From a virus: a DNA stretch of 21,076 nt. The translations under genes were made by a program, and so were the position numbers. The stretch spans positions 1 to 21,076 of the IMG/VR virus record IMGVR_UViG_3300040809_000129. One strand, 5' to 3'. Shown here piece after piece: positions 1,849 through 18,670 of this stretch (its first letter is position 1; each line of letters opens with the position of its first letter). The notes under the pieces are model-generated. The model did no database searches. It had not been told where the DNA came from and was given only the letters and a program-made list of their open reading frames with translations.

Positions 1849-2441
1849 TGTTATCCAACAAGCTACGTATGGGCGGCGGCGGCGGCGGCGGTATCACCCC
1901 TGGATATTACTCTATAATAGCTTCTACAGGTAATAATGATAGCGCAGATCCCAATATTATTAATATTTACTATCGTAGGTCACTCATCCATTTTGTTTAC
2001 ACCGCAGCCGAAATTCAAGCGGCTACGGGCGCCACCAGCGGGACAATCAGCGCCCTGAGATTTAATGTTGTAGGAGAACCTGCATACCAACCGTTGCCTG
2101 ACTATGCTGTCGGCATTAAAAATGGTACATTTAGCGGAGACCCTGGATACACGGGATACACGATTGTCTTTGGTCCAAGTGCTGAAAATTTTTACGCAAA
2201 CTCAGAGAAATTCCTCGGCTTTGGTTCTAATACCTTTGTTTGGACAGGAGGAGATTTAGCATTTGCTTTTGCTTGGGGTCAGTGCCCAGAAGACTATGAC
2301 GAGTCAGGTGTAACTCCAATCGGGTCTGGGACGATGTATTTCGACCAGTCAGACAGCTCAGGTGCATATACAATCAATTCCGATAGTACAGGTGACTATA
2401 TGAATTATAGACCAGTTATTGAATTATATTTTGCTGGGTGA
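1848..2441 (+). CDS. Glycine-rich adhesin-like tail protein
   Basis: I start this 197-residue protein at the ATG overlapping the preceding stop (TAATG). The longer frame from 1797 would add 17 residues inside the upstream gene. A run of seven glycines follows at about residues 8-14, coded by a GGC-repeat tract at 1872-1890. The rest is a beta-rich domain with aromatic residues: YYSIIASTGNNDSADP, IHFVYTAAEIQAATG, TSGTISALRFNV and NTFVWTGGDLAFAFAW. The 'YTAAEI...TSGTISALRF' pattern resembles beta-sandwich domains of secreted surface proteins. Position among fibre genes suggests a receptor-binding tip or adhesin. I do not recognise a specific family. Coding-like sequence continues in frame after its TGA (see the remnant at 2442-2516). 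Confidence 0.5.
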   Translation: MLSNKLRMGGGGGGGITPGYYSIIASTGNNDSADPNIINIYYRRSLIHFVYTAAEIQAATGATSGTISALRFNVVGEPAYQPLPDYAVGIKNGTFSGDPGYTGYTIVFGPSAENFYANSEKFLGFGSNTFVWTGGDLAFAFAWGQCPEDYDESGVTPIGSGTMYFDQSDSSGAYTINSDSTGDYMNYRPVIELYFAG

Positions 2442-2516
2442 TACGCCAACGAAGCCAAGGCTCGTATTGAAGCAAACCGTCAGGGTAAAGTCCTTGAGGA
2501 AAAAACACAAAAATAA
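2442..2516 (+). pseudogene. In-frame coding-like remnant after the adhesin stop (possible readthrough or old C-terminus)
   Basis: Directly after the TGA at 2439-2441 the same frame stays open for 24 codons to a TAA at 2514-2516. It encodes a charged helical peptide beginning YANEAKARIEANRQGK and ending EEKTQK. This looks like the tail of a real phage protein rather than random AT-rich DNA. It may be the leftover C-terminus of a replaced gene, or an extension reached by TGA readthrough. No independent start is visible. Confidence 0.3.
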
Positions 2517-2526
2517 AGGGCTATTA

Positions 2527-3210
2527 ATGAGTAAAAGAAAATCTCGCTATGCTACTAAGACAAATGTTCATCAACTAGGTTTTCATGTAATACCTAAAAA
2601 TGATAAACAAGATAAACTTATACGAAGTATTAAGATGTACCCGATTGTAGTAACAATTGGGTGCGCTGGTACGGGGAAGACTTATTGTAGTGCAGGGACA
2701 GTTGCTCAGTTATACAAGCAAGGTAAGTATGATAAAATTGTACTTACCAGAGCAAACGTACCCACAGGTAAAACTCTTGGACACTTTCCAGGAACTATAC
2801 AAGATAAAATGACACCTTGGTTAATGCCTATGCTTGAAGTTTTAGAAGAAGCTTTAGGTAAAAGCAAATACCAGTATATGTTAAATAAAGGCGAGATTGA
2901 GATACAACCTATTGAGACTATTAGAGGGCGTTCTTATAAGGACGCTCTTGTACTAGTTGATGAGGCCCAAAACCTCACTATAGAAGAGCTTAAAGCTATT
3001 AGCACTAGACTAGGAAAGAACTCTAAGTTAATTCTTATGGGGGATCCGGCTCAGTCAGACGTTAAACATGGCGAAGACTTAGTTAGATTTTGTAAGTTAA
3101 TTAAAAGAGCAGGTATACAATTACCTGTTGTAGAGTTTACAGTAGATGATATTGTTCGGAGTGATATTGTTGCTGACTTAGTTAGAATGTTTATATCAGA
3201 GAAAATATAA
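2527..3210 (+). CDS. phoH: PhoH-like phosphate-starvation ATPase
   Basis: This 227-residue protein is a P-loop ATPase of the phage PhoH family. The Walker A motif is GCAGTGKT at 45-52, a Walker B-type LVLVDEAQN lies at about 141-149, and the GDPAQSD sensor-like motif is at 172-178. TRANVPTGKTLGHFPG (about 74-89) and the RGRS motif (133-136) are also typical. I choose the ATG at 2527, with AAAGGG six bases upstream, because the longer frame from 2419 would overlap the adhesin and add a non-homologous stretch. PhoH is common in marine phages. Its biochemical role in infection is not settled; ATPase or RNA-linked functions are proposed for the family. It sits as a metabolic or host-takeover gene inside a structural cluster and is followed by a hairpin. 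Family assignment is firm. Confidence 0.93.
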   Translation: MSKRKSRYATKTNVHQLGFHVIPKNDKQDKLIRSIKMYPIVVTIGCAGTGKTYCSAGTVAQLYKQGKYDKIVLTRANVPTGKTLGHFPGTIQDKMTPWLMPMLEVLEEALGKSKYQYMLNKGEIEIQPIETIRGRSYKDALVLVDEAQNLTIEELKAISTRLGKNSKLILMGDPAQSDVKHGEDLVRFCKLIKRAGIQLPVVEFTVDDIVRSDIVADLVRMFISEKI

Positions 3211-3216
3211 CAATCT

Positions 3217-3264
3217 CTAGGGGATAGAATACCTGACGTTAAAGAAGGTTGGGCTATCCCCTAG
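3217..3264 (+). other. Long intergenic hairpin (11-bp perfect stem)
   Basis: CTAGGGGATAG at 3217-3227 pairs perfectly with CTATCCCCTAG at 3254-3264 around a 26-nt loop. It occupies most of the gap between phoH and the next gene. No T-tract follows, so it is not a standard intrinsic terminator. It may be an RNA-processing or stability element, or a weak attenuator. Confidence 0.6.
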
Positions 3265-9833: not shown

Positions 9834-10216
9834 TACAAGCACTTATAGGTCCAATTGCCGAACTAGCAGGAGGCTGGCTTAAAGGTAAAGCAAGCGCACA
9901 AGCTGCTGCTGTAAACCTTAAATTAGTTGAGGCCGAAGCTAAAGCCACCATAATGAAATCAGCAGCTACATCTGAAGCTGACTGGGAAAGAATTATGGCG
10001 GAAGGCTCTAAAGAGAGCTGGAAAGACGAATGGTTGACAATACTCTTCTCTGTCCCGCTTATCCTAGCCTTCTTTGGTGATTGGGGTAGAATTATTGTAG
10101 AACAAGGCTTCGCAGCCCTAGAAGTAATGCCAACTTGGTATCAATACACTCTTGGTGTAATTGTTAGTGCTAGCTTTGGTGTTCGTTCTGCAACCAAGTT
10201 CTTTGGTAAAAAGTAA
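9830..10216 (+). CDS. Holin of the GTA 3TM-type family
   Basis: This 128-residue protein has an amphipathic Ala-rich N-terminus (about 1-45, KGKASAQAAAVNLKLVEAEAKA). It is followed by SWKDEWLTILFSVPLILAFFGDW (about 63-85, first clear membrane segment) and PTWYQYTLGVIVSASFGVRSATKFF (about 101-125, second). The 'W..SWKDEW' entry, the 'PxWY' before the last helix and the 'FGVRSxxKF' end are the pattern of holins related to the gene-transfer-agent release holin (GTA_holin_3TM). It would open the inner membrane to let the M15 endolysin out. It is coupled to the preceding membrane protein by an ATGA overlap. I rate the family assignment good. Confidence 0.75.
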   Translation: MIQALIGPIAELAGGWLKGKASAQAAAVNLKLVEAEAKATIMKSAATSEADWERIMAEGSKESWKDEWLTILFSVPLILAFFGDWGRIIVEQGFAALEVMPTWYQYTLGVIVSASFGVRSATKFFGKK

Positions 10217-10452: not shown

Positions 10453-10472
10453 AAATACCCGCAAATAATGAT
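10453..10472 (+). promoter_or_regulatory. Candidate phage RNAP promoter, copy 1
   Basis: AAATACCCGCAAATAATGAT here is repeated exactly at 10561-10580. It is followed by AAGAGACAGG, a purine-rich start-like segment. The AAATAC start recalls TAATAC of T7 promoters and AGAG recalls the T7 start region, though the spacing is longer. It lies in the noncoding region upstream of the operon that encodes a T7-like RNA polymerase. Confidence 0.5.
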
Positions 10473-10507
10473 AAGAGACAGGAATCAAACTTTCCTGACA
10501 GTCTCTT
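10473..10507 (+). other. Hairpin A: structured leader directly after copy 1
   Basis: AAGAGAC (10473-10479) pairs with GTCTCTT (10501-10507). Inside it AGGAA (10480-10484) pairs with TTCCT (10492-10496), with a four-base 3' bulge (GACA). If copy 1 is a promoter, the transcript would begin almost at the base of this stem. No T-tract follows. Confidence 0.55.
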
Positions 10508-10512
10508 CACTA

Positions 10513-10543
10513 GCCACCCTCTAGGAATCACCTGGGGGGTGGC
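10513..10543 (+). other. Hairpin B: GC-rich stem between the two promoter-like repeats
   Basis: GCCACCC (10513-10519) pairs with GGGTGGC (10537-10543), extendable inward with further C-G and G-U pairs. The 3' side has CTTGATAAC instead of a U-run, so a terminator is weakly supported. It could be an RNA stability or processing element, or part of a small RNA bounded by the two repeats. Confidence 0.5.
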
Positions 10544-10560
10544 CTTGATAACTAGAGTAA

Positions 10561-10580
10561 AAATACCCGCAAATAATGAT
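10561..10580 (+). promoter_or_regulatory. Candidate phage RNAP promoter, copy 2
   Basis: This is an exact second copy of the 20-mer at 10453-10472, followed by TAGGGGGCC, which is close to the T7-type AGGG start. It is about 127 bases upstream of the portal ATG and is not coding. The two copies differ outside the 20-mer, except that both keep an AG and purines just downstream. A DNA-binding or packaging role is an alternative. Confidence 0.55.
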
Positions 10581-10706: not shown

Positions 10707-12275
10707 ATGGCACTAGTTAAGACAGCTGCTAGTTCTCATAAGCGTGGTGTAGAAACACCTACAGCATCTTATTTGTCCTTAAAACCACTCTGGAAAAAAT
10801 CCCGCAGTGTTTTACAGGGACAAGCTCATGCTAAGGCTCATGATGAATACATTGAACACGATTATTCGAATCTATTGATTCCTTTTTCTCCTTCAATGAC
10901 ACAACAACAATACGACTTCTATAAGGCAGAGGCAGAGCTACCGGGGTTAACTACACAATACGCCCGAGTGCTAATTAGCGCCTTGCTTCGGAAACCCTCA
11001 CGGTTAGAGTTACCCGATGATGTCCCAGAAGAGGCCTATGACTGGCTAACTAAGGACTTTACCTTAGATGGCGCTTCAATGTTTAACTTCCTTGATTCGG
11101 CTATCTGGGAAGAGTTACAAACTTCTCGTGCTTGGATTTACGTTGATACTCCCAAAGTTAACGCCGAACAGTATGATATCATGACAGACGAAGAGCGTAT
11201 GCGTATTGCGCCATACCCCACAGTCATGAAGGCTGAGAATGTTATTAATGTTCAGCTAAAAGAACACCCTATTACTCGTATTAAACAATTGTCTCGTTGG
11301 ATTACTAGGTATATTGCTAAAAGCTACAGTGATGATAACCCTTGGCACCCTAGCTTTGTGGACACAGTCGCAGACCACTACATTGACGAGGCTGGGGGTC
11401 TAGTGATTGATATCTATCAACGTAAGGATCCCAACCACAGTGTCGATGCTGTAAATGGTGAACTTCGTCAGGACTACGAAGACGAAGTAGAATCTGGATT
11501 TATTAAAGTTGAAACAATGACACCAATGAAGTTTGGTGAAAGACTAGAATTTATTCCTGCATGGCCCTTAAATGGTCAATTAGAACCTATCGAGCCAGTT
11601 CTTATGCCCCTTGTAGATCGTGAAGTTGCTCTTTATAACAAGGTATCTCGTAGAAACCACTTATTATACGGTGCTGCAACTTATACTCCTGTTGTACAAT
11701 CTGATATGACAGATGAGGAATTCGAGGAAATTGTTAACGCAGGATTAGGTACTTGGCTACGTGTTCGCAAGGATGAATCAATTTCTGTTCTTGAAACGCC
11801 TACAGCTGCCTTGGCCGATATGGAAAAGGCTATTGCTTCTACAGTACAAGAAATGGCCAAGATGGGGATTCGTATGCTTTCCCCAGAGCAAGCAACCTCC
11901 GGCGTGGCTCTTGAAATCCGTAATGCGTCTCAAACCGCACAACTCGGAACACTTAACTCTAAAATCTCAGGCACTATGCAGGAGGTTATTGCATTCATGA
12001 TGAATTGGAAATACAACCTAGATCTAACAGGTAATGATATTGTATTCCAATTATCTTCAGATTTTTCACCTATGGTAGGTGGAGAAGGTGCAATGCGTCT
12101 AGTATCTGAATGGTATCAGTCTGGTATTATTAGTCGTGAAACTTTTGTTTCTATTGCTAAGTACAATGACTTCTTACCTGCAGACTATGATGACGAAAAG
12201 GCAGTTGGTTCAATCCAAACTGATCCTCTCATCGGTACAACTCCCGATACAGAAATTACTCTCGATGAAGAATAG
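10707..12275 (+). CDS. Portal protein (DUF4055-type)
   Basis: This 522-residue protein starts at an ATG with GAGGT seven bases upstream. The first ~110 residues match the DUF4055 portal group: LLIPFSPSMTQQQYDFYKAEAELPG and TTQYARVLISALLRKPSRLELP. EELQTSRAWIYVDTP (about 135-149) is the 'AGRag..VD.P'-like strand. The region around 300-420 (LVDREVALYNKVSRRNHLLYGAA, ATSGVALEIRNASQTAQLG) is the helical stem-crown part. It forms the dodecameric ring at the capsid vertex through which DNA is packaged and ejected. It is the first gene of the head operon, directly downstream of the promoter-like repeats. The Mu F-like fusion follows, the usual order portal then Mu F protein. The tail is acidic (PDTEITLDEE). 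Confidence 0.88.
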   Translation: MALVKTAASSHKRGVETPTASYLSLKPLWKKSRSVLQGQAHAKAHDEYIEHDYSNLLIPFSPSMTQQQYDFYKAEAELPGLTTQYARVLISALLRKPSRLELPDDVPEEAYDWLTKDFTLDGASMFNFLDSAIWEELQTSRAWIYVDTPKVNAEQYDIMTDEERMRIAPYPTVMKAENVINVQLKEHPITRIKQLSRWITRYIAKSYSDDNPWHPSFVDTVADHYIDEAGGLVIDIYQRKDPNHSVDAVNGELRQDYEDEVESGFIKVETMTPMKFGERLEFIPAWPLNGQLEPIEPVLMPLVDREVALYNKVSRRNHLLYGAATYTPVVQSDMTDEEFEEIVNAGLGTWLRVRKDESISVLETPTAALADMEKAIASTVQEMAKMGIRMLSPEQATSGVALEIRNASQTAQLGTLNSKISGTMQEVIAFMMNWKYNLDLTGNDIVFQLSSDFSPMVGGEGAMRLVSEWYQSGIISRETFVSIAKYNDFLPADYDDEKAVGSIQTDPLIGTTPDTEITLDEE

Positions 12276-12301
12276 GATGGTGGGGCTTCGGCCCCGCCTC
12301 C
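12275..12301 (+). other. UUCG-capped hairpin between portal and Mu F/RNAP genes
   Basis: GGTGGGGC (12279-12286) pairs with GCCCCGCC (12291-12298) around a TTCG tetraloop, and GGA/TCC extend the stem past a bulged T. It begins at the portal stop codon and ends 19 bases before the next ATG. No T-run follows, so it is more likely a stability or processing hairpin than a strong terminator. Confidence 0.75.
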
Positions 12302-12319: not shown

Positions 12320-15300
12320 ATGGCTACCGTCAACGATAAAATATTTGACCGTATTGTAGATCACATGACAGATGTAAGGCTCTATGAAAACGGTGTACAA
12401 AAACAAAACAGAGCGATTCTGAAAACACATCGCAAGAATTTAAGAGATATATTGGTAAAAGATATCCGTGGTGATGTAAAACCTGAAGTGACACGCTTCG
12501 GAAAGGAACTCCTTGGACATAATACAAAGTCTTTAAGTGAGTTCTCTAAGTCCCAATTATCCTTCCACTCAAATAACATTGATGCGGAAATTAAAAAGTT
12601 CTATCGAACAAATAAACCTAAAACTAAAGAACTACTAGCAGAAATCTCTGGCCCTAATATTAAAGGTGTACGAAAGATATCTTCAAATATTAGCAACATT
12701 TCTTCTGGTGAGCTAGTGCGCATTCAGTCTAAAGTCAAGGCAGGTCTTGCCAAAGGACTATCTAAGAATGAAATTATTGCTGATGTTATGAAAACAACTA
12801 AGATCACAGAACATCAAGCTAAAACCTTAACACGCACCTCTATCACAAGTACTCAGACACAGGCCCTAAATCAAGTTATGGATGCTAACTCTGAGGTATT
12901 AGAGGGTTATATGTTTACAGCTATACTTGACGCTCGTACAAGCCCTATTTGCTCTCACCATAATGGCAGAGTCTATAAGCTTGACGAGATGCAGTATAGG
13001 CCTCCGCTTCACTGGAACTGTCGATCTTCAATGGTTCCTGTTGTTAAGTCTAAAGAACAACTAGCCGCTGTAAAAAGCAAAAACATAAAAGAGCGTGGCC
13101 TTAAGAATACGCAATCTGCCGATCTTGATGGCAACCCCTCTAGAATAAAAACATTTGGAGAGTGGTTACGCAGACAACCAACTGATACCCAAGCTAAGAT
13201 ACTTGGCGGAGAGCGTCAGGCTACTTTGTTTCAAAAAGGAAGACTAAAAGCTGAAGAGTTTGTAAGTCCAGAAGGTAAAGCACTTTCTATCCGTGGCCTT
13301 ATGCGCCGTGCTAATACTACAGTACGTAGGCCAACTGCTTCGAACATATCTAATACTACTCTGAGGTTTAATACACCCGATGAGTTAATGTCATCTAAGA
13401 GTAGTACACAGGCTTTAAAAGATTTCTTCAAGGCTGATGCCGCAGAAAACGCACAGTCATTGTCTCTTGTAGACTACAAGGGTAACTCCCTCGCTCAAAA
13501 ACAGAGTGCAAGACGATATTTTAAGAATGATCGTAAGGGCGCTGCCTTTAGTTCTGATGGTACAGACTACAATTCTGGACCATACAAACATCTACAAGCA
13601 CCTGACCCTGAATTCTTGGCAGAAAGGTTGGAGCGGCTTAGTTTTGAGCAGTACAGTCTTACTCCAAAACAACAGAGCTATATCCGAAATTTTGTTAATG
13701 ACTTAGATAGCTCTTTGTCGGTTAATCAAAGAGCAGCTGTTACGGATGTAATGCGCCAAACATTTTCTCGTGCAAATAAGAACGGGGAAGTCTGGGAACA
13801 ACCTGTTTCTGTATTCCGCAAATTTATGCTTAATGCTGTACAAGATAACGGTACCTCTCTTTTTAACAGATCTGTAGAACGTGGCAAAATGTTTGGGCCT
13901 CTCGGGTCTAGACTAGCTGACGATCCTGATGTATTTATACTAAATAGAAAATATACTATATCTCAGATTGTAGAAGACCAGCTAAGAGATAATCGCTATA
14001 TAGAGACTTGGCGAGGTAAACAGGGCGCTAAACTTGCCCGGAGAGCTTACTATAACCGTAGTGCTCCTATTTCAGCTTATACCCAACCAATCATTAAAAG
14101 GTATCCTTCAATTAAAAATGCTAAAAAGGCATTATTAAATAAGATACCGGGTTATAAACAGTGGCAAGCTATAAATAAACTCTTGGAACCCAAGGGGCCA
14201 TCTGATTCCTGGATTACACAACAGATAGCTAAACTTCGGGGAACTACCCGTGAGTTGCTTGATGGAGAGTTCCTCTTTGCTAGCAATAGGAAAAAGGCTA
14301 TTAGAAATCTAAATGACAAGTCAACCAGTGCCTTGGCTAAATCAATGGAAGCTATTGCACAGGCGGATGGTGCAGATTATGACCAATTAGCAATCAAGAT
14401 TGGACAAATATTTGATCAAGAGCTAGGTAATCTAAACCCATTCCGATCTAAGACTCTTGGGGAATTCCACAAGGATGGCTCTAAGATTTTAGCGAATCTA
14501 GAAAAGCAAAAGCTTATTCGCACAGATGTCTTCAGAGACTCTGGGACAAGCTCACCGATCGACATTGTTACAGGTAGACCTGCAGCTGATAAGACTCTGC
14601 GAGGAACCTCCGTATTTAAACAAATACAAATAATCGACGGGGATCTTCGCCAGCTTCAGATTGCTCACGCAAAAACTCGTACAGCTAGGCGGTTTGGGGT
14701 TTACAATAATAGAGATAAGGTCTATGCTCGTGCAGGTCAAAAAGAGTACTATGATGCTCGTGGCCGCAAGACAAAGATGCCAGTTGTATCTGAAAAAGTA
14801 TACCCCGACTATGATCCTAAGCAGATTGACCGTGAAATGGCTCAAATGCTTAATCATGCTAACTCCGTAAAATACCAAGTTGACAATGACTTTTTTGACT
14901 TTGCTGAAGAGGTTATTTACTTTAAAGCTAAACGTGCTGGTGACTCTAAGCTGCTAGAACAAAATGAATGGAAGAAGTTATTTATCGATGCTAGAGGTAA
15001 TGATGGTCGTGGGGTTTTGGCTACTGCCAAATTCCATAGACAAAGAAATCAAAGTTTTTCAGTTGACGCCTCAATTGATTTCCGTGGGCGTGTATATCAC
15101 CGTGGACTATTAACCCCAACCAAGGGGGAGACTGTACGTCCGTTTTTAAATACGGCAAAGGGAGTTTCTATTACTCCAAATGCGGTTGAAGAGCTTATGA
15201 CTCAAATTGGTGCTGCAACAGGTGCTGCTACCGAAGTACTAACTGTAAAGGGTAGGCTAAAAGCCTTTAAAGCTATTGAACAAGATCTGCTAGAGCTTGG

Positions 15301-16774
15301 TGGCTATATGTTAGATAAGCCTTCTCAGCGTGCAGGGCAAGTTCGAAAGTTCATTGCTAAAACCCATCAAATGGGTCTTGATGATGAACACATAGGTAAG
15401 GTCTCTCGGCTTGCTCTAGAATACACTCGTATATACCGACATATGGGCGGTAAAATGTTAACTGATAAGTCTAAGTGGAGTTCCGCAGATATTAAAAAGT
15501 TAGCTCAGTACAAGACTAAGATGATGATTGAAAATGATGCTAGTTCTTCTGGTGCTCAAATTATCGCCTTGTCTACTAAGGATCGTGCTGCTGCCGACTT
15601 ATCTAATGTTGTTCAAACTTCAAGTAAACAAAGATTATACGATGAGATCGCTAAGAGAACCGTTAATGATCCTGAGTTTCTAGCTATACCTGAACTTGCT
15701 GAATTAGACCTAGATTGGTCAGACCTTATGAAGGCTGCTAAAAATCAAAACATGGTTACGTTCTATGGTGCTGGTGACGCTACCAAGGCTAATAACGTTT
15801 CTAATGCTTTTGCGAAAGTGTTAGCGAATAAAGGTAAAGTGACTATTTCCGCTAAAGAGGTGGATAAGTTTAAAAAGGCCATTGATGCTAAAATTAGCTT
15901 TGAAATGGACAGAAAGAATTGGGCACGTATTGACGAACTACGTGACATAAAGAAAAACGTGGTACTGGCTTCTAAAGACGGAAAGCCTATCACAGACTCC
16001 CTACACGACATTGCCAAGGCAGAGTTTAGAGATGGGATTAAGAGTTCAGAAGAGATGCATACTTTTCTATACAAACTTAAAGACGAGACAGGAGACCTTG
16101 TAGGTACCCGTGTCTTTGAGAAAGTATCTAAAATTATGACTCGCTATCTTGAAGAAGAGGTTCCTGTGACCGGAAAGTTTATCAAGTTCTGGAAAGACGT
16201 AGCAAAAGACTACGTTGCAGAATCTGGTTCAGTTGACATTCCTTGGGTTACTTTTGATGGTAAAACAATGATGCAACGCTATCGTGTCAAGGAACAAGTA
16301 AGAATTGACTTTACAGACCCAGTCACTGGGCAAAAGGTCTTTAATATTTACGAGACTCCCTCTCGTGATGGTAAGCTACTATCACAACAATCAATACAGG
16401 ACGCTGCTATTGGATTAGGGGTTAATGGGAACCACAGCAATGACGCCGTGCTCGTAAGAAGATTTCACCTTTGGGGGCGAAAGAATAATGTCGATACTGG
16501 TACAATCCACGATGCGTTCTTTACAAACCTAGGTGACGCAGTAAATGCGAAATTTGCCTTAAGACAGTTTTATGCTGATGCATTAAAGTCTGGGACAATA
16601 GAACAAACTCTCAAGGCTATGAGAGACTCGGGCATGTCAAGAGCGACATACCGGAAATACGTACAACGTGCCAAACAGGACGGGCTTTTAAAGTCTGGCC
16701 CAGAGGCGCTAACCTACCGAGAAGTCCTAGATCCGATTAAGGACGGGAATGACTGGTATGGTATCGGACCATAG
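12320..16774 (+). CDS. Fusion of Mu F-like minor head protein with a T7-like single-subunit RNA polymerase
   Basis: This is one uninterrupted 1484-residue frame with two recognisable parts. Residues about 150-245 are the Mu F/SPP1 gp7 minor head domain: LTRTSITSTQTQALNQ, then LDARTSPICSHHNGRVY with Cys211, His213 and His214, and PPLHWNCRSS with His231 and Cys234. Residues about 830-1484 align with T7 RNA polymerase. DFRGRVY at 920-926 matches T7 DWRGRVY. NDASSSGAQ has Asp1073, matching catalytic Asp537. KNQNMVTFYG has Lys1141, Met1145 and Tyr1149, matching Lys631, Met635 and Tyr639 with identical spacing. IPWVTFDGK is at 1307-1315. GNHSNDAVLVRRF precedes TIHDAFFT with His1397 and Asp1398, matching His811 and Asp812. 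Both catalytic Asp residues are kept. Residues about 245-830 are basic and unrecognised. Mu F proteins sit inside the capsid at the portal, so I infer a packaged polymerase. The Arg of the KxxxMxxxYG helix is replaced (Met1137). Confidence 0.9.
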   Translation: MATVNDKIFDRIVDHMTDVRLYENGVQKQNRAILKTHRKNLRDILVKDIRGDVKPEVTRFGKELLGHNTKSLSEFSKSQLSFHSNNIDAEIKKFYRTNKPKTKELLAEISGPNIKGVRKISSNISNISSGELVRIQSKVKAGLAKGLSKNEIIADVMKTTKITEHQAKTLTRTSITSTQTQALNQVMDANSEVLEGYMFTAILDARTSPICSHHNGRVYKLDEMQYRPPLHWNCRSSMVPVVKSKEQLAAVKSKNIKERGLKNTQSADLDGNPSRIKTFGEWLRRQPTDTQAKILGGERQATLFQKGRLKAEEFVSPEGKALSIRGLMRRANTTVRRPTASNISNTTLRFNTPDELMSSKSSTQALKDFFKADAAENAQSLSLVDYKGNSLAQKQSARRYFKNDRKGAAFSSDGTDYNSGPYKHLQAPDPEFLAERLERLSFEQYSLTPKQQSYIRNFVNDLDSSLSVNQRAAVTDVMRQTFSRANKNGEVWEQPVSVFRKFMLNAVQDNGTSLFNRSVERGKMFGPLGSRLADDPDVFILNRKYTISQIVEDQLRDNRYIETWRGKQGAKLARRAYYNRSAPISAYTQPIIKRYPSIKNAKKALLNKIPGYKQWQAINKLLEPKGPSDSWITQQIAKLRGTTRELLDGEFLFASNRKKAIRNLNDKSTSALAKSMEAIAQADGADYDQLAIKIGQIFDQELGNLNPFRSKTLGEFHKDGSKILANLEKQKLIRTDVFRDSGTSSPIDIVTGRPAADKTLRGTSVFKQIQIIDGDLRQLQIAHAKTRTARRFGVYNNRDKVYARAGQKEYYDARGRKTKMPVVSEKVYPDYDPKQIDREMAQMLNHANSVKYQVDNDFFDFAEEVIYFKAKRAGDSKLLEQNEWKKLFIDARGNDGRGVLATAKFHRQRNQSFSVDASIDFRGRVYHRGLLTPTKGETVRPFLNTAKGVSITPNAVEELMTQIGAATGAATEVLTVKGRLKAFKAIEQDLLELGGYMLDKPSQRAGQVRKFIAKTHQMGLDDEHIGKVSRLALEYTRIYRHMGGKMLTDKSKWSSADIKKLAQYKTKMMIENDASSSGAQIIALSTKDRAAADLSNVVQTSSKQRLYDEIAKRTVNDPEFLAIPELAELDLDWSDLMKAAKNQNMVTFYGAGDATKANNVSNAFAKVLANKGKVTISAKEVDKFKKAIDAKISFEMDRKNWARIDELRDIKKNVVLASKDGKPITDSLHDIAKAEFRDGIKSSEEMHTFLYKLKDETGDLVGTRVFEKVSKIMTRYLEEEVPVTGKFIKFWKDVAKDYVAESGSVDIPWVTFDGKTMMQRYRVKEQVRIDFTDPVTGQKVFNIYETPSRDGKLLSQQSIQDAAIGLGVNGNHSNDAVLVRRFHLWGRKNNVDTGTIHDAFFTNLGDAVNAKFALRQFYADALKSGTIEQTLKAMRDSGMSRATYRKYVQRAKQDGLLKSGPEALTYREVLDPIKDGNDWYGIGP

Positions 16775-16861: not shown

Positions 16862-17536
16862 ATGGAAAATCAAGTAGAGAATGAAGTAGTAAATGAAGAA
16901 GAAGAAGCTGTACAATCAACTGAAAAGGTTGAGGAAACAGTAGAAGCCCCTAAGGCATCTGAAGATGATCTCGAAGCTATCGTAAATGAGCGACTGGCTA
17001 AGATGAAAGAAAACATGGACCGAATGGCCAAAGAACGTGATGACGCACTAAAGCTAAAAGCAGACCTTGAAGCTAAAAGCAAAGAGGACGCAATTGCCCG
17101 TATGAAAGAAGAAGGCAAGCTGCAAGAAGCTTTAGAAATGGAACTTGCAGACGCCAAAGCTAAACTGGCATCTTATCAAGAGCAGAATACAAAACTCTCT
17201 CGTGATAATGTCCTAAATCAGGCTCTGGCAGGTATGGATTTCCGTAATGAAAAATCTCGTGACATGGCTCGGCGTGAAATTGTTGAATCATTAATTCAGA
17301 GTGAAGAAGGGGCTTGGGTACATTCTTCTGGCATGACTATCTCAGACTTTGTTGAGTCTTATGCTAAATCCGAAGACAACTCTTTCTTGTTCCGTCCTAA
17401 AAATAACAGCGGAGCAGGTACAGGTACTCCTGCAGGAGCACCATCAACTGAGCAGAAAAAGGCCATTGGCCAAATGACTACTCAAGAAATTTTAGCTCTT
17501 GCAGCTAAAGGCCAACTAGGTAATTTTAACCTATAA
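16862..17536 (+). CDS. Capsid scaffolding protein
   Basis: This 224-residue protein starts at an ATG with AGGAAAGGA upstream. The N-terminus is very acidic (NEEEEAVQSTEKVEETVE). Residues about 40-120 are a heptad-rich coiled coil full of Lys, Glu and Ala (ERLAKMKENMDRMAKERDDALKLKADLEAK). A Gly/Ala/Pro-rich linker (about 181-195) leads to a C-terminal helix (TTQEILALAAKGQLG), where scaffolds commonly bind the coat. Size, composition and place directly before the major capsid gene are the standard pattern of a scaffold that organises prohead assembly and is then released. No protease motif is visible, so processing, if any, is unclear. Confidence 0.8.
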   Translation: MENQVENEVVNEEEEAVQSTEKVEETVEAPKASEDDLEAIVNERLAKMKENMDRMAKERDDALKLKADLEAKSKEDAIARMKEEGKLQEALEMELADAKAKLASYQEQNTKLSRDNVLNQALAGMDFRNEKSRDMARREIVESLIQSEEGAWVHSSGMTISDFVESYAKSEDNSFLFRPKNNSGAGTGTPAGAPSTEQKKAIGQMTTQEILALAAKGQLGNFNL

Positions 17537-17569: not shown

Positions 17570-18670
17570 ATGGCTATCTCAAATACAGACTTCCAGAATA
17601 TCGCTCTGGCAATCTCCGCCTACGGTGACGAGGCCTACACAAAGGCTAAGAAACTTAATGGCACAGGTATCGTTGCTGCTGACCAGCGCATCGACCTTTC
17701 TGGCGAATCTTTCATCGGTCAATTCCGTTGGTACAAGCCACTTTCAGCAACAGTAAACGTTGCCTCCTTGGCCTCTGCAACAGATGGTACATACACAGGT
17801 ATCGCAACTGACGTTGCTGACTTTGTGAAAACAGTTCGTACCTTCGGTGCAGAACAAGTAAACATGCAAGAAGTTGTATCCCAGCAAGACGGTCTGGCGA
17901 AAATTGCCCGTGACTTTGCTGAAGTCCGTGCGCAAGACGAGCATGACGCTCTGTTGTCAGTACTCAAGGGTGTAGCTGCTCACGAAGTTGGCCTCGGCAC
18001 AACTTCCGGCATTATTGACTTTGACACGGACGCAGACGCCTCTGGTGTTGGCTCCTTTGTAGACGTTAACGCTGCTGGGCTTCACGGTGCTGCTGCAACT
18101 GGCGCTTCTGACGCACGTAAACTCTTTGACTCCACTGCAATGGGCGCTGCCCGTGGTGAGCGCTTGTTCCGTTCTATCGGTGCTGCATTCAAAGATTACG
18201 AACCAGACTTCATGTACATGGTTACTTCCCCTGAAGTTATGGCTGAAATGCGTGCTGCCAACTTGGTTGACGAAACAACTGTTACTGAAGGTAACATTGA
18301 GTTCACAACAATCTTTGGTGGTAAATTCCGCCTGATTATGACTCGTGCAAATCAAGGTAACTTGGGTGCTGAGTCTGAAGTAAACGCACAGTCCACAAAG
18401 ACTACCTTCATTATCAAGCCAGGTTCTGTAGCTTCTGCTGCTATGCCAATCCCAACCCCTGTTGAAGTTGACCGTTCAGCGGCTTCCTACATGGGCGGTG
18501 GTTCTACAAATGTATGGTATCGCTGGGGCTATGCGATGCACCCAATGGGTTATGACTGGGCTGGTTCAACAACTGCCTTTGCAACTAACGCAACTATGGG
18601 CGCAGCCGCTTCGTATGCACGTAAAATGGACGCATTGAACTTGGGCATCCTGCCTATCTTCCACGCTTAA
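17570..18670 (+). CDS. Major capsid protein
   Basis: This 366-residue protein starts at an ATG with AAAGGA upstream and follows the scaffold by 33 bases. Codon choice changes sharply here: TTC, GAC, AAC, TAC and GCC become frequent, unlike the AT-ending codons of neighbours. This is the mark of a very highly expressed gene. The sequence is mixed alpha/beta without membrane segments: VRTFGAEQVNMQEVVSQQDGLAKIARDFAEVRAQDEHDALLSVL (about 85-128) resembles the long spine-helix region of HK97-fold coats. FMYMVTSPEVMAEMRAANLVDE and FTTIFGGKFRLIMTRAN (about 213-264) are like the P-domain. GYAMHPMGYDWAG lies near the end. It would build the icosahedral shell. Position and expression signature are strong; the exact coat family is not determined. 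Confidence 0.85.
   Translation: MAISNTDFQNIALAISAYGDEAYTKAKKLNGTGIVAADQRIDLSGESFIGQFRWYKPLSATVNVASLASATDGTYTGIATDVADFVKTVRTFGAEQVNMQEVVSQQDGLAKIARDFAEVRAQDEHDALLSVLKGVAAHEVGLGTTSGIIDFDTDADASGVGSFVDVNAAGLHGAAATGASDARKLFDSTAMGAARGERLFRSIGAAFKDYEPDFMYMVTSPEVMAEMRAANLVDETTVTEGNIEFTTIFGGKFRLIMTRANQGNLGAESEVNAQSTKTTFIIKPGSVASAAMPIPTPVEVDRSAASYMGGGSTNVWYRWGYAMHPMGYDWAGSTTAFATNATMGAAASYARKMDALNLGILPIFHA

Follow-up and report, generated by a model that had tools for sequence, protein, structure and literature searches.

Why would a phage join an RNA polymerase (RNAP) to a protein of its head? The question is raised by positions 1 to 21,076 of IMG/VR virus record IMGVR_UViG_3300040809_000129 (the window), in which one gene encodes a protein of 1484 residues that begins as a minor head protein of the MuF/SPP1 gp7 type and ends as a T7-type single-subunit RNAP (ssRNAP). 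Virion-packaged RNAPs are known from N4-like podophages, jumbo phages, crAss-like phages, and P23-45. It is quite probable that this gene encodes another, of new architecture and acting in early transcription. A description of a MuF-RNAP protein was not found in the literature searched; a 2021 roseophage paper in Current Biology lay outside that search.

The fusion itself is certainly real. All 1484 codons are open, with zero internal stops, from an ATG preceded by GGAG, whereas the opposite strand of the interval is closed by many stops. An earlier sequence-only reading had described a single frame joining a head domain to an RNAP, and had named a stop or frameshift between the parts as grounds for refuting it; the frame stands, the Pfam and PHROGs domains agree with it, and the parts are likewise continuous in 121 intact homologs. 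Those came from related phages, where that reading had proposed to look. By tblastn, two cultured roseophages, DSS3_VP1 and DSS3_PM1 (VP1 and PM1; QGH74596.1 and QGH74736.1), have a full-length fusion of 45% identity, annotated only as "minor head protein-like"; in EBPR siphovirus 1 an HNH endonuclease interrupts the fusion gene. Three queries run against IMG/VR yielded 83, 147, and 48 confirmed relatives, and the loci kept from these scans, together with VP1 and EBPR siphovirus 1, number 208. The fusion is intact, as judged by alignment coverage, in 121 of these, which form 34 clusters below 72% identity, and Pfam found both Phage_Mu_F and RNA_pol domains in 26/26 representatives scanned. Two clades, about 30% identical, can be told apart: group A takes in the DSS3 phages together with the window, and group BC takes in L087 and relatives of EBPR siphovirus 1. 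That two genes were joined by an error of assembly or annotation is rejected, with next to no probability left to it, because the 121 intact homologs lie in independent contigs and include two cultured phages.

Is the carboxyl-terminal part an RNAP? Pfam RNA_pol (PF00940) matches residues 1058–1437 (E 1.2e-7; 31.4 bits, cut-off 22), PHROGs returns an RNA polymerase match (E 8e-24), and hhalign aligns the protein to T7 RNAP (E 3.9e-8). In that alignment NDASSSGAQ falls on T7 FDGSCSGIQ (Asp537); KNQNMVTFYG is equated with T7 KRSVMTLAYG (Lys631/Tyr639) by inspection, hhalign placing a gap there. The motif positions given by the sequence-only reading (DFRGRVY, Asp1073, Lys1141/Met1145/Tyr1149, WVTFDG, and His1397-Asp1398) are all correct, and its remark that both catalytic Asp residues and the Lys-Tyr spacing are kept extends to the family: D920, R922, R924, Y926, D1073, K1141, M1145, Y1149, G1150, D1313, H1397, and D1398 are invariant in the 26 representatives, which span both clades. 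An AlphaFold2 model of residues 341–1484, built from a 19-row alignment (predicted local distance difference test 75; predicted template modeling score 0.71), folds as an ssRNAP, not as something unlike one. The PDB matches listed by Foldseek are all ssRNAPs (human and yeast mitochondrial RNAPs and T7 RNAP; best E 5e-18), and the target-normalised template modeling score against T7 RNAP 3e2e is 0.57. By motifs A, B, and C, with both catalytic Asp, the Lys, and the Tyr, and by fold, this part belongs to the T7-type ssRNAPs. Residues 1315–1368 correspond, by position only, to the T7 specificity-loop region. The polymerase presumably begins somewhere within residues 331–830; this middle region is present in all homologs, evolves faster than either end, and is 31–38% identical to that of the DSS3 clade.

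The same conservation bears on whether the enzyme works. Inactivity has been suggested for some MuF partners, such as the PBECR domain in Mu gp30 (PMC5512222), and the polymerase part might likewise be a catalytically dead ssRNAP fold, kept as a DNA-binding or an ejection or anchoring part of the head. One would expect a dead enzyme to drift; however, both catalytic Asp residues, Lys1141, Tyr1149, His1397, Asp1313, DxRxRxY, and NHSNDA are invariant at about 30% identity. Moreover, introns are placed at its catalytic codons. The fusion gene is interrupted at recurring points in about 19 loci, and an Rfam search of 10 interrupted loci found group I introns above the gathering score in 9, EBPR siphovirus 1 being the one in which none was found. 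In L070, whose splice sites were assigned by inspection, exon ends AACCAGAACAT and GGTAACATTC rejoin to N-M-V-T-F, so that the intron lies inside the O-helix codon for Met1145 (window 15752–15754). Other sites are between GETV and RPFLN (939/940), in the O-helix (1142–1147), between NG and NH (1370/1371), and directly after catalytic Asp1398. Homing introns tend to settle in codons unable to change, and their positions therefore give independent evidence of constraint on the polymerase site. A dead enzyme is thus very improbable, and we infer that the carboxyl-terminal part is very likely an active ssRNAP. One MuF-RNAP gene, L244 (7496–12613), contains five group I introns; L242, L210, and L236 also bear introns, and several introns of these four loci are in or beside catalytic codons.

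The amino-terminal part is a head protein by several measures. Pfam Phage_Mu_F (PF04233) matches residues 135–238 (E 4e-16; 60.2 bits, cut-off 29.6), close to the stretch of about 150–245 that the sequence-only reading had assigned to a MuF-type minor head domain. In PHROGs, phrog_241 (head morphogenesis) matches over residues 1–381 (E 3e-54), and phages with a MuF protein only share about residues 1–330 with the fusion (tblastn), which gives the extent of the MuF-type part. An AlphaFold2 model of residues 1–600 matches many minor capsid and head morphogenesis proteins in BFVD, among them the MuF-ADP-ribosyltransferase (ART-MuF) proteins of Xp12 and Percival; against solved structures it gave nothing significant. 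The gene stands where a MuF gene is expected, beside the portal gene and ahead of the scaffold and major capsid genes, in an order (portal, fusion, scaffold, capsid) common to the window, VP1, PM1, and L087. Genomes bearing the fusion have tape-measure and J-like tail genes. In the MuF protein of Pelagibacter phage Aegir (L245 2998–4896) the polymerase is replaced by a possible zinc metallopeptidase carboxyl terminus (Pfam E 9e-5, below cut-off), which may be a further MuF cargo.

Does the protein bear signs of a life inside the virion? Only two Cys residues, C211 and C234, occur in the window fusion; both belong to the MuF domain, and 122/122 proteins share them. Beyond residue 250, Cys is absent from 41/41 group-A and 79/80 group-BC proteins (120/121). 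By comparison, 23 free RNAPs encoded by the same phages have about 12.5 Cys per 1000 residues, with a minimum of 5 each, and the VP1 DNA polymerase has 8 in 661. Known enzymes divide in the same way: the N4 virion RNAP (vRNAP) has 0 Cys in 3500 residues, N4 RNAPII 13 in 673, and T7 RNAP 12 in 883. A Cys-free polymerase of this kind, more than 1000 residues long, has the look of a protein stored in and ejected from the virion.

Those free enzymes are the second element of the argument. VP1 and PM1 each encode a free ssRNAP of 732 residues (QGH74624.1 and QGH74764.1; Pfam E 8.5e-83 for VP1). Such an enzyme was found in 29/35 records searched, the other six being fragments or partial sequences, namely in 8/13 group-A virus records, the five without it being fragments of 20.7–38.6 kb; and in L087's contig and 20/20 large BC contigs. 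In the partial sequence of EBPR siphovirus 1, a second RNAP was not found beside the fusion's polymerase. By hhalign the fused polymerase is roughly equidistant from T7 RNAP, N4 RNAPII, and the phage's own free RNAP; being no closer to the last than to T7, it is not supported as a recent duplication of it. The free RNAP genes of many BC-clade phages (G021, G023, G025, G028, G029, G030, and G034) are likewise broken at recurring points, with further introns the probable cause.

Two classes of promoter-like motif accompany the two enzymes. A candidate early motif of 34 bp (AAARTGRGRAAANYNNNSYMTCTATAAYGAAGAA, also written AAAGTGAGAAAACTAAGGCATCTATAATGAAGAA) occurs in 2–4 copies per genome in VP1, PM1, G001, G002, G003, G004, G011, G012, and G014, with one copy each in G012 and G014 needing a looser threshold. 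All copies are on the + strand and precede the free-RNAP gene; those of VP1 lie between that gene and the tape-measure gene. Shuffled sequences gave none at the threshold used. The core of the motif, CTATAAYGAAGAA, resembles the SP6 promoter, CACTATAGAAG. A short hairpin, as in N4-style promoters, can be formed by some copies but not by those of VP1.

The candidate late motif, in one form AATAGGGTGCGTTAAAGAGGGGGA, is found ahead of the head genes. In relatives of the window clade, AAATAGGGCGGAATAATGA stands just after the free-RNAP gene (G001 13165, G004 38334, G014 19062, G012 20966, G003 34608), and twice before the portal gene wherever the sequence covers that region. In VP1, 12–15 copies of AATAGGKTGCGTTAAAGA lie on the + strand only, ahead of structural and middle genes, several followed by GGGGGA, and one stands after phoH (VP1 7407), as does a possible promoter in the window (Table 1). 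Six group-BC loci have a further motif, ACCCGTTAAATTAACC, after the free-RNAP gene. The late motif core at the same place is ACCCGCAAATAATGA in the window (10453–10580) and AGGGCGGAATAATGA in relatives (G001 58637–58766). Differing cores suggest that late promoter and free RNAP may have co-evolved.

The simplest reading of these positions is the order early motif, free RNAP, late motif, and head genes including the fusion. Each polymerase would pair with one motif, the fusion presumably reading the early one. A polymerase made late would be useful for early genes only if packaged. The sequence-only reading had the polymerase packaged through its head domain and delivered with the DNA; that view gains support from the Cys exclusion, the free RNAP, the late position with its late-type repeats, and the separate early motif. 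Packaging of the fusion into the virion is, from these data, highly probable; its ejection and early transcription are probable.

How might such a protein act? In SPP1, the portal protein gp6 draws a few copies of gp7 into the procapsid (PMC6316719). MuF carboxyl termini carry toxins or enzymes (PMC6316719; PMC5512222), and toxins on gp7/MuF carboxyl termini are thought to travel the same route (PMC6316719). The MuF/gp7-type domain of the fusion, made late with the head genes, would similarly bind the portal side of the procapsid and carry the covalently attached, divergent T7-type ssRNAP into the head, where the fusion would sit inside the capsid. It would then be threaded through the tail along with the DNA, which we propose as the reason why its polymerase part lacks Cys, and would refold in the cell. 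There, early promoters of its own would let it transcribe the early region. The free ssRNAP would be one of the early products and would transcribe middle and late genes, the fusion gene for the following round among them.

Several points weigh against a packaged polymerase that acts early. Low Cys content is general among virion proteins (VP1 tape measure 0/1655, portal 1/537), and Cys exclusion would argue for a virion protein, not specifically for ejection. The fused polymerase has little sequence similarity to T7 RNAP. At 21 kb, the window is a fragment that includes neither the early region nor a free RNAP; evidence on both comes from relatives, of which G012 and G014 have fusions 83–86% identical to the window's. 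Record G005 and group-BC genome G008 gave no match to the early motif, and an early motif for group BC, looked for only in passing, was not found. The early motif also contains TATAAT, so that host sigma-70 holoenzyme could be its reader, although TTGACA is missing at the right distance and the conserved block runs through the spacer into GAAGAA.

That TATAAT, together with the place of the gene in the late cluster, would also suit an enzyme that works in the producing cell as late-gene polymerase and enters the virion incidentally or never, host RNAP reading the early genes from sigma-70-like promoters. However, the free ssRNAP, with its gene between the early and late motif classes, is already a candidate late enzyme. 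Furthermore, a polymerase part free of Cys would be expected in a virion protein and not in an enzyme of the cytoplasm, for which it is hard to see why every homolog should keep a head domain. A polymerase confined to the producing cell is accordingly unlikely.

A packaged polymerase need not stay attached to its carrier. Large phages cleave head proteins during maturation, and here the middle region diverges faster than both ends; proteolysis in the head or on entry could free the polymerase from the MuF domain, the fusion serving as a packaging tag. This variant, compatible with packaging and early action, seems improbable; a protease or cleavage site was not identified in the window. A further proposal is tentative and less likely than not: the MuF-tethered ssRNAP would stay at the entry channel after ejection and pull the genome in while transcribing from its dedicated early promoter. 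That would start a cascade from vRNAP to free RNAP that is fully phage-encoded, independent of host RNAP, and reached by an independent evolutionary route. The cultured members presumably carry deoxyuridine DNA, like AR9/PBS2, and this, if true, would give a reason for independence from host RNAP.

Comparison with known systems shows what is shared and what is new. N4 gp50, the vRNAP of the Schitoviridae, is likewise a late-encoded member of the ssRNAP superfamily in a phage that also encodes another RNAP, has a Cys-free polymerase part, and is presumed to start early transcription. However, gp50 has about 3500 residues, its own amino-terminal ejection and carboxyl-terminal encapsidation regions, and hairpin promoters, and belongs to a short-tailed phage; the fusion has 1484 residues, a MuF amino terminus that keeps two Cys, and a polymerase at the very carboxyl terminus, and its early motifs are not consistently hairpins. 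With the N4 gp50 polymerase core, hhalign gave no significant match (E 0.16 and 0.28), and an "N4-like" phrog_2166 match is weak (E 0.001), N4 RNAPII and T7 RNAP scoring better. Orthology to the N4 vRNAP is rejected on this sequence evidence and on architecture. The fusion is, as far as its sequence tells, a MuF-family head protein with ssRNAP cargo, one that would work like the N4 vRNAP from outside the N4 family. A 2025 preprint describes the large vRNAP of N4 as unique to its family (PMC12633501).

Thermus phage P23-45 offers a precedent for the plan: in this long-tailed phage, gp96 is an RNAP covalently fused to a structural virion protein, gp64 is a second, non-virion RNAP, and promoter motifs are separate (PMC10770324). 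A Western blot of virions gave a band of the full-length tape-measure fusion (PMC10770324). The P23-45 enzymes are two-barrel RNAPs, with gp96 on the tail tape measure, whereas here a T7-type ssRNAP is on a head protein. Virion RNAPs of jumbo phages (phiKZ, AR9/PBS2) and gp66 of crAss-like phi14:2 are also polymerases packaged for early genes (PMC10612078), but are multisubunit or two-barrel enzymes. MuF effector fusions (MuF-ADP-ribosyltransferase, MuF-toxins; SPP1 gp7, Mu gp30) share the MuF/gp7 domain beside the portal and a carboxyl-terminal cargo that is believed to enter the cell along with the DNA (PMC5512222, PMC6316719); here the cargo is an RNA polymerase. With RNAPs of the T7/SP6 type the fusion has all catalytic motifs and the fold in common, but it is highly divergent and carries a head domain.

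Coordinates are collected in Table 1. In the DSS3 phages, portal and fusion are separated by a tRNA gene (L002 19816–19891, L086 39589–39664), and L070 has one immediately before the fusion (9866–9937); the window has a GC-rich hairpin at about 12281–12300 between these genes, without a tRNA. Elsewhere in the window, a 5'-truncated gene for an FG-GAP repeat protein (3–914; Pfam E 2e-53) lies at the contig edge, before a tail-fibre assembly chaperone gene, and a PhoH-like ATPase gene (2419–3210) lies within the late cluster, the DSS3 phages having one at the matching place.

Table 1. Features of the window; residue numbers are those of the fusion protein
Feature	Position	Strand	Basis or remark
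Possible promoter GAATACCTGACGTTAAAGA after phoH	3227..3245	+	Shares ACGTTAAAGA with VP1 late motif; single copy, weak
Candidate late promoter AAATACCCGCAAATAATGAT, first copy	10453..10472	+	Identical pair in gap before portal
Candidate late promoter AAATACCCGCAAATAATGAT, second copy	10561..10580	+	Identical pair in gap before portal
Portal protein gene, directly upstream of fusion	10707..12275	+	phrog_145 E 1e-45, Pfam DUF4055
MuF-RNA polymerase fusion gene, 1484 residues	12320..16774	+	Single open frame; 121 intact full-length homologs
Head-morphogenesis (MuF/SPP1 gp7-like) region, residues 1–330	12320..13309	+	PF04233, phrog_241, BFVD fold matches
Pfam core of MuF region, residues 135–238	12722..13033	+	PF04233
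Middle region, residues 331–830: helical linker and presumed polymerase amino-terminal part	13310..14809	+	AlphaFold2 models; no family assigned
ssRNAP catalytic region, residues 831–1484	14810..16771	+	Pfam PF00940; Foldseek T7/POLRMT/Rpo41 E ~1e-16; hhalign
DFRGRVY, residues 920–926	15077..15097	+	T7 DWRGRVY
Motif A, catalytic Asp1073 (NDASSSGAQ)	15536..15538	+	T7 Asp537 equivalent
Motif B/O-helix, K1141...M1145...Y1149	15740..15766	+	T7 K631/M635/Y639 equivalent
WVTFDG, residues 1309–1314	16244..16261	+	T7 WVTPDG
GNHSNDA, residues 1370–1376	16427..16447	+	Aligned with T7 NFVHSQDG (NHSNDA on FVHSQDG)
Motif C, catalytic His1397-Asp1398 (TIHDAFF)	16508..16513	+	T7 His811-Asp812 equivalent; IHDAF on IHDSF
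Scaffold protein gene, directly downstream of fusion	16862..17536	+	phrog_206 E 1.5e-13
Major capsid protein gene	17570..18670	+	phrog_247 E 4e-23

Together, these results strongly suggest that the polymerase travels inside the particle and reads viral genes once the DNA enters the cell. If so, siphophage-like genomes, in more than 100 contigs and two cultured roseophages, would hold a separate class of virion RNAP, and the MuF delivery module would extend from toxins to a transcription enzyme. Loss of Cys may be a readable mark of virion RNAPs. Moreover, the pair of polymerases and the candidate promoter sequences could be tested in vitro at once.

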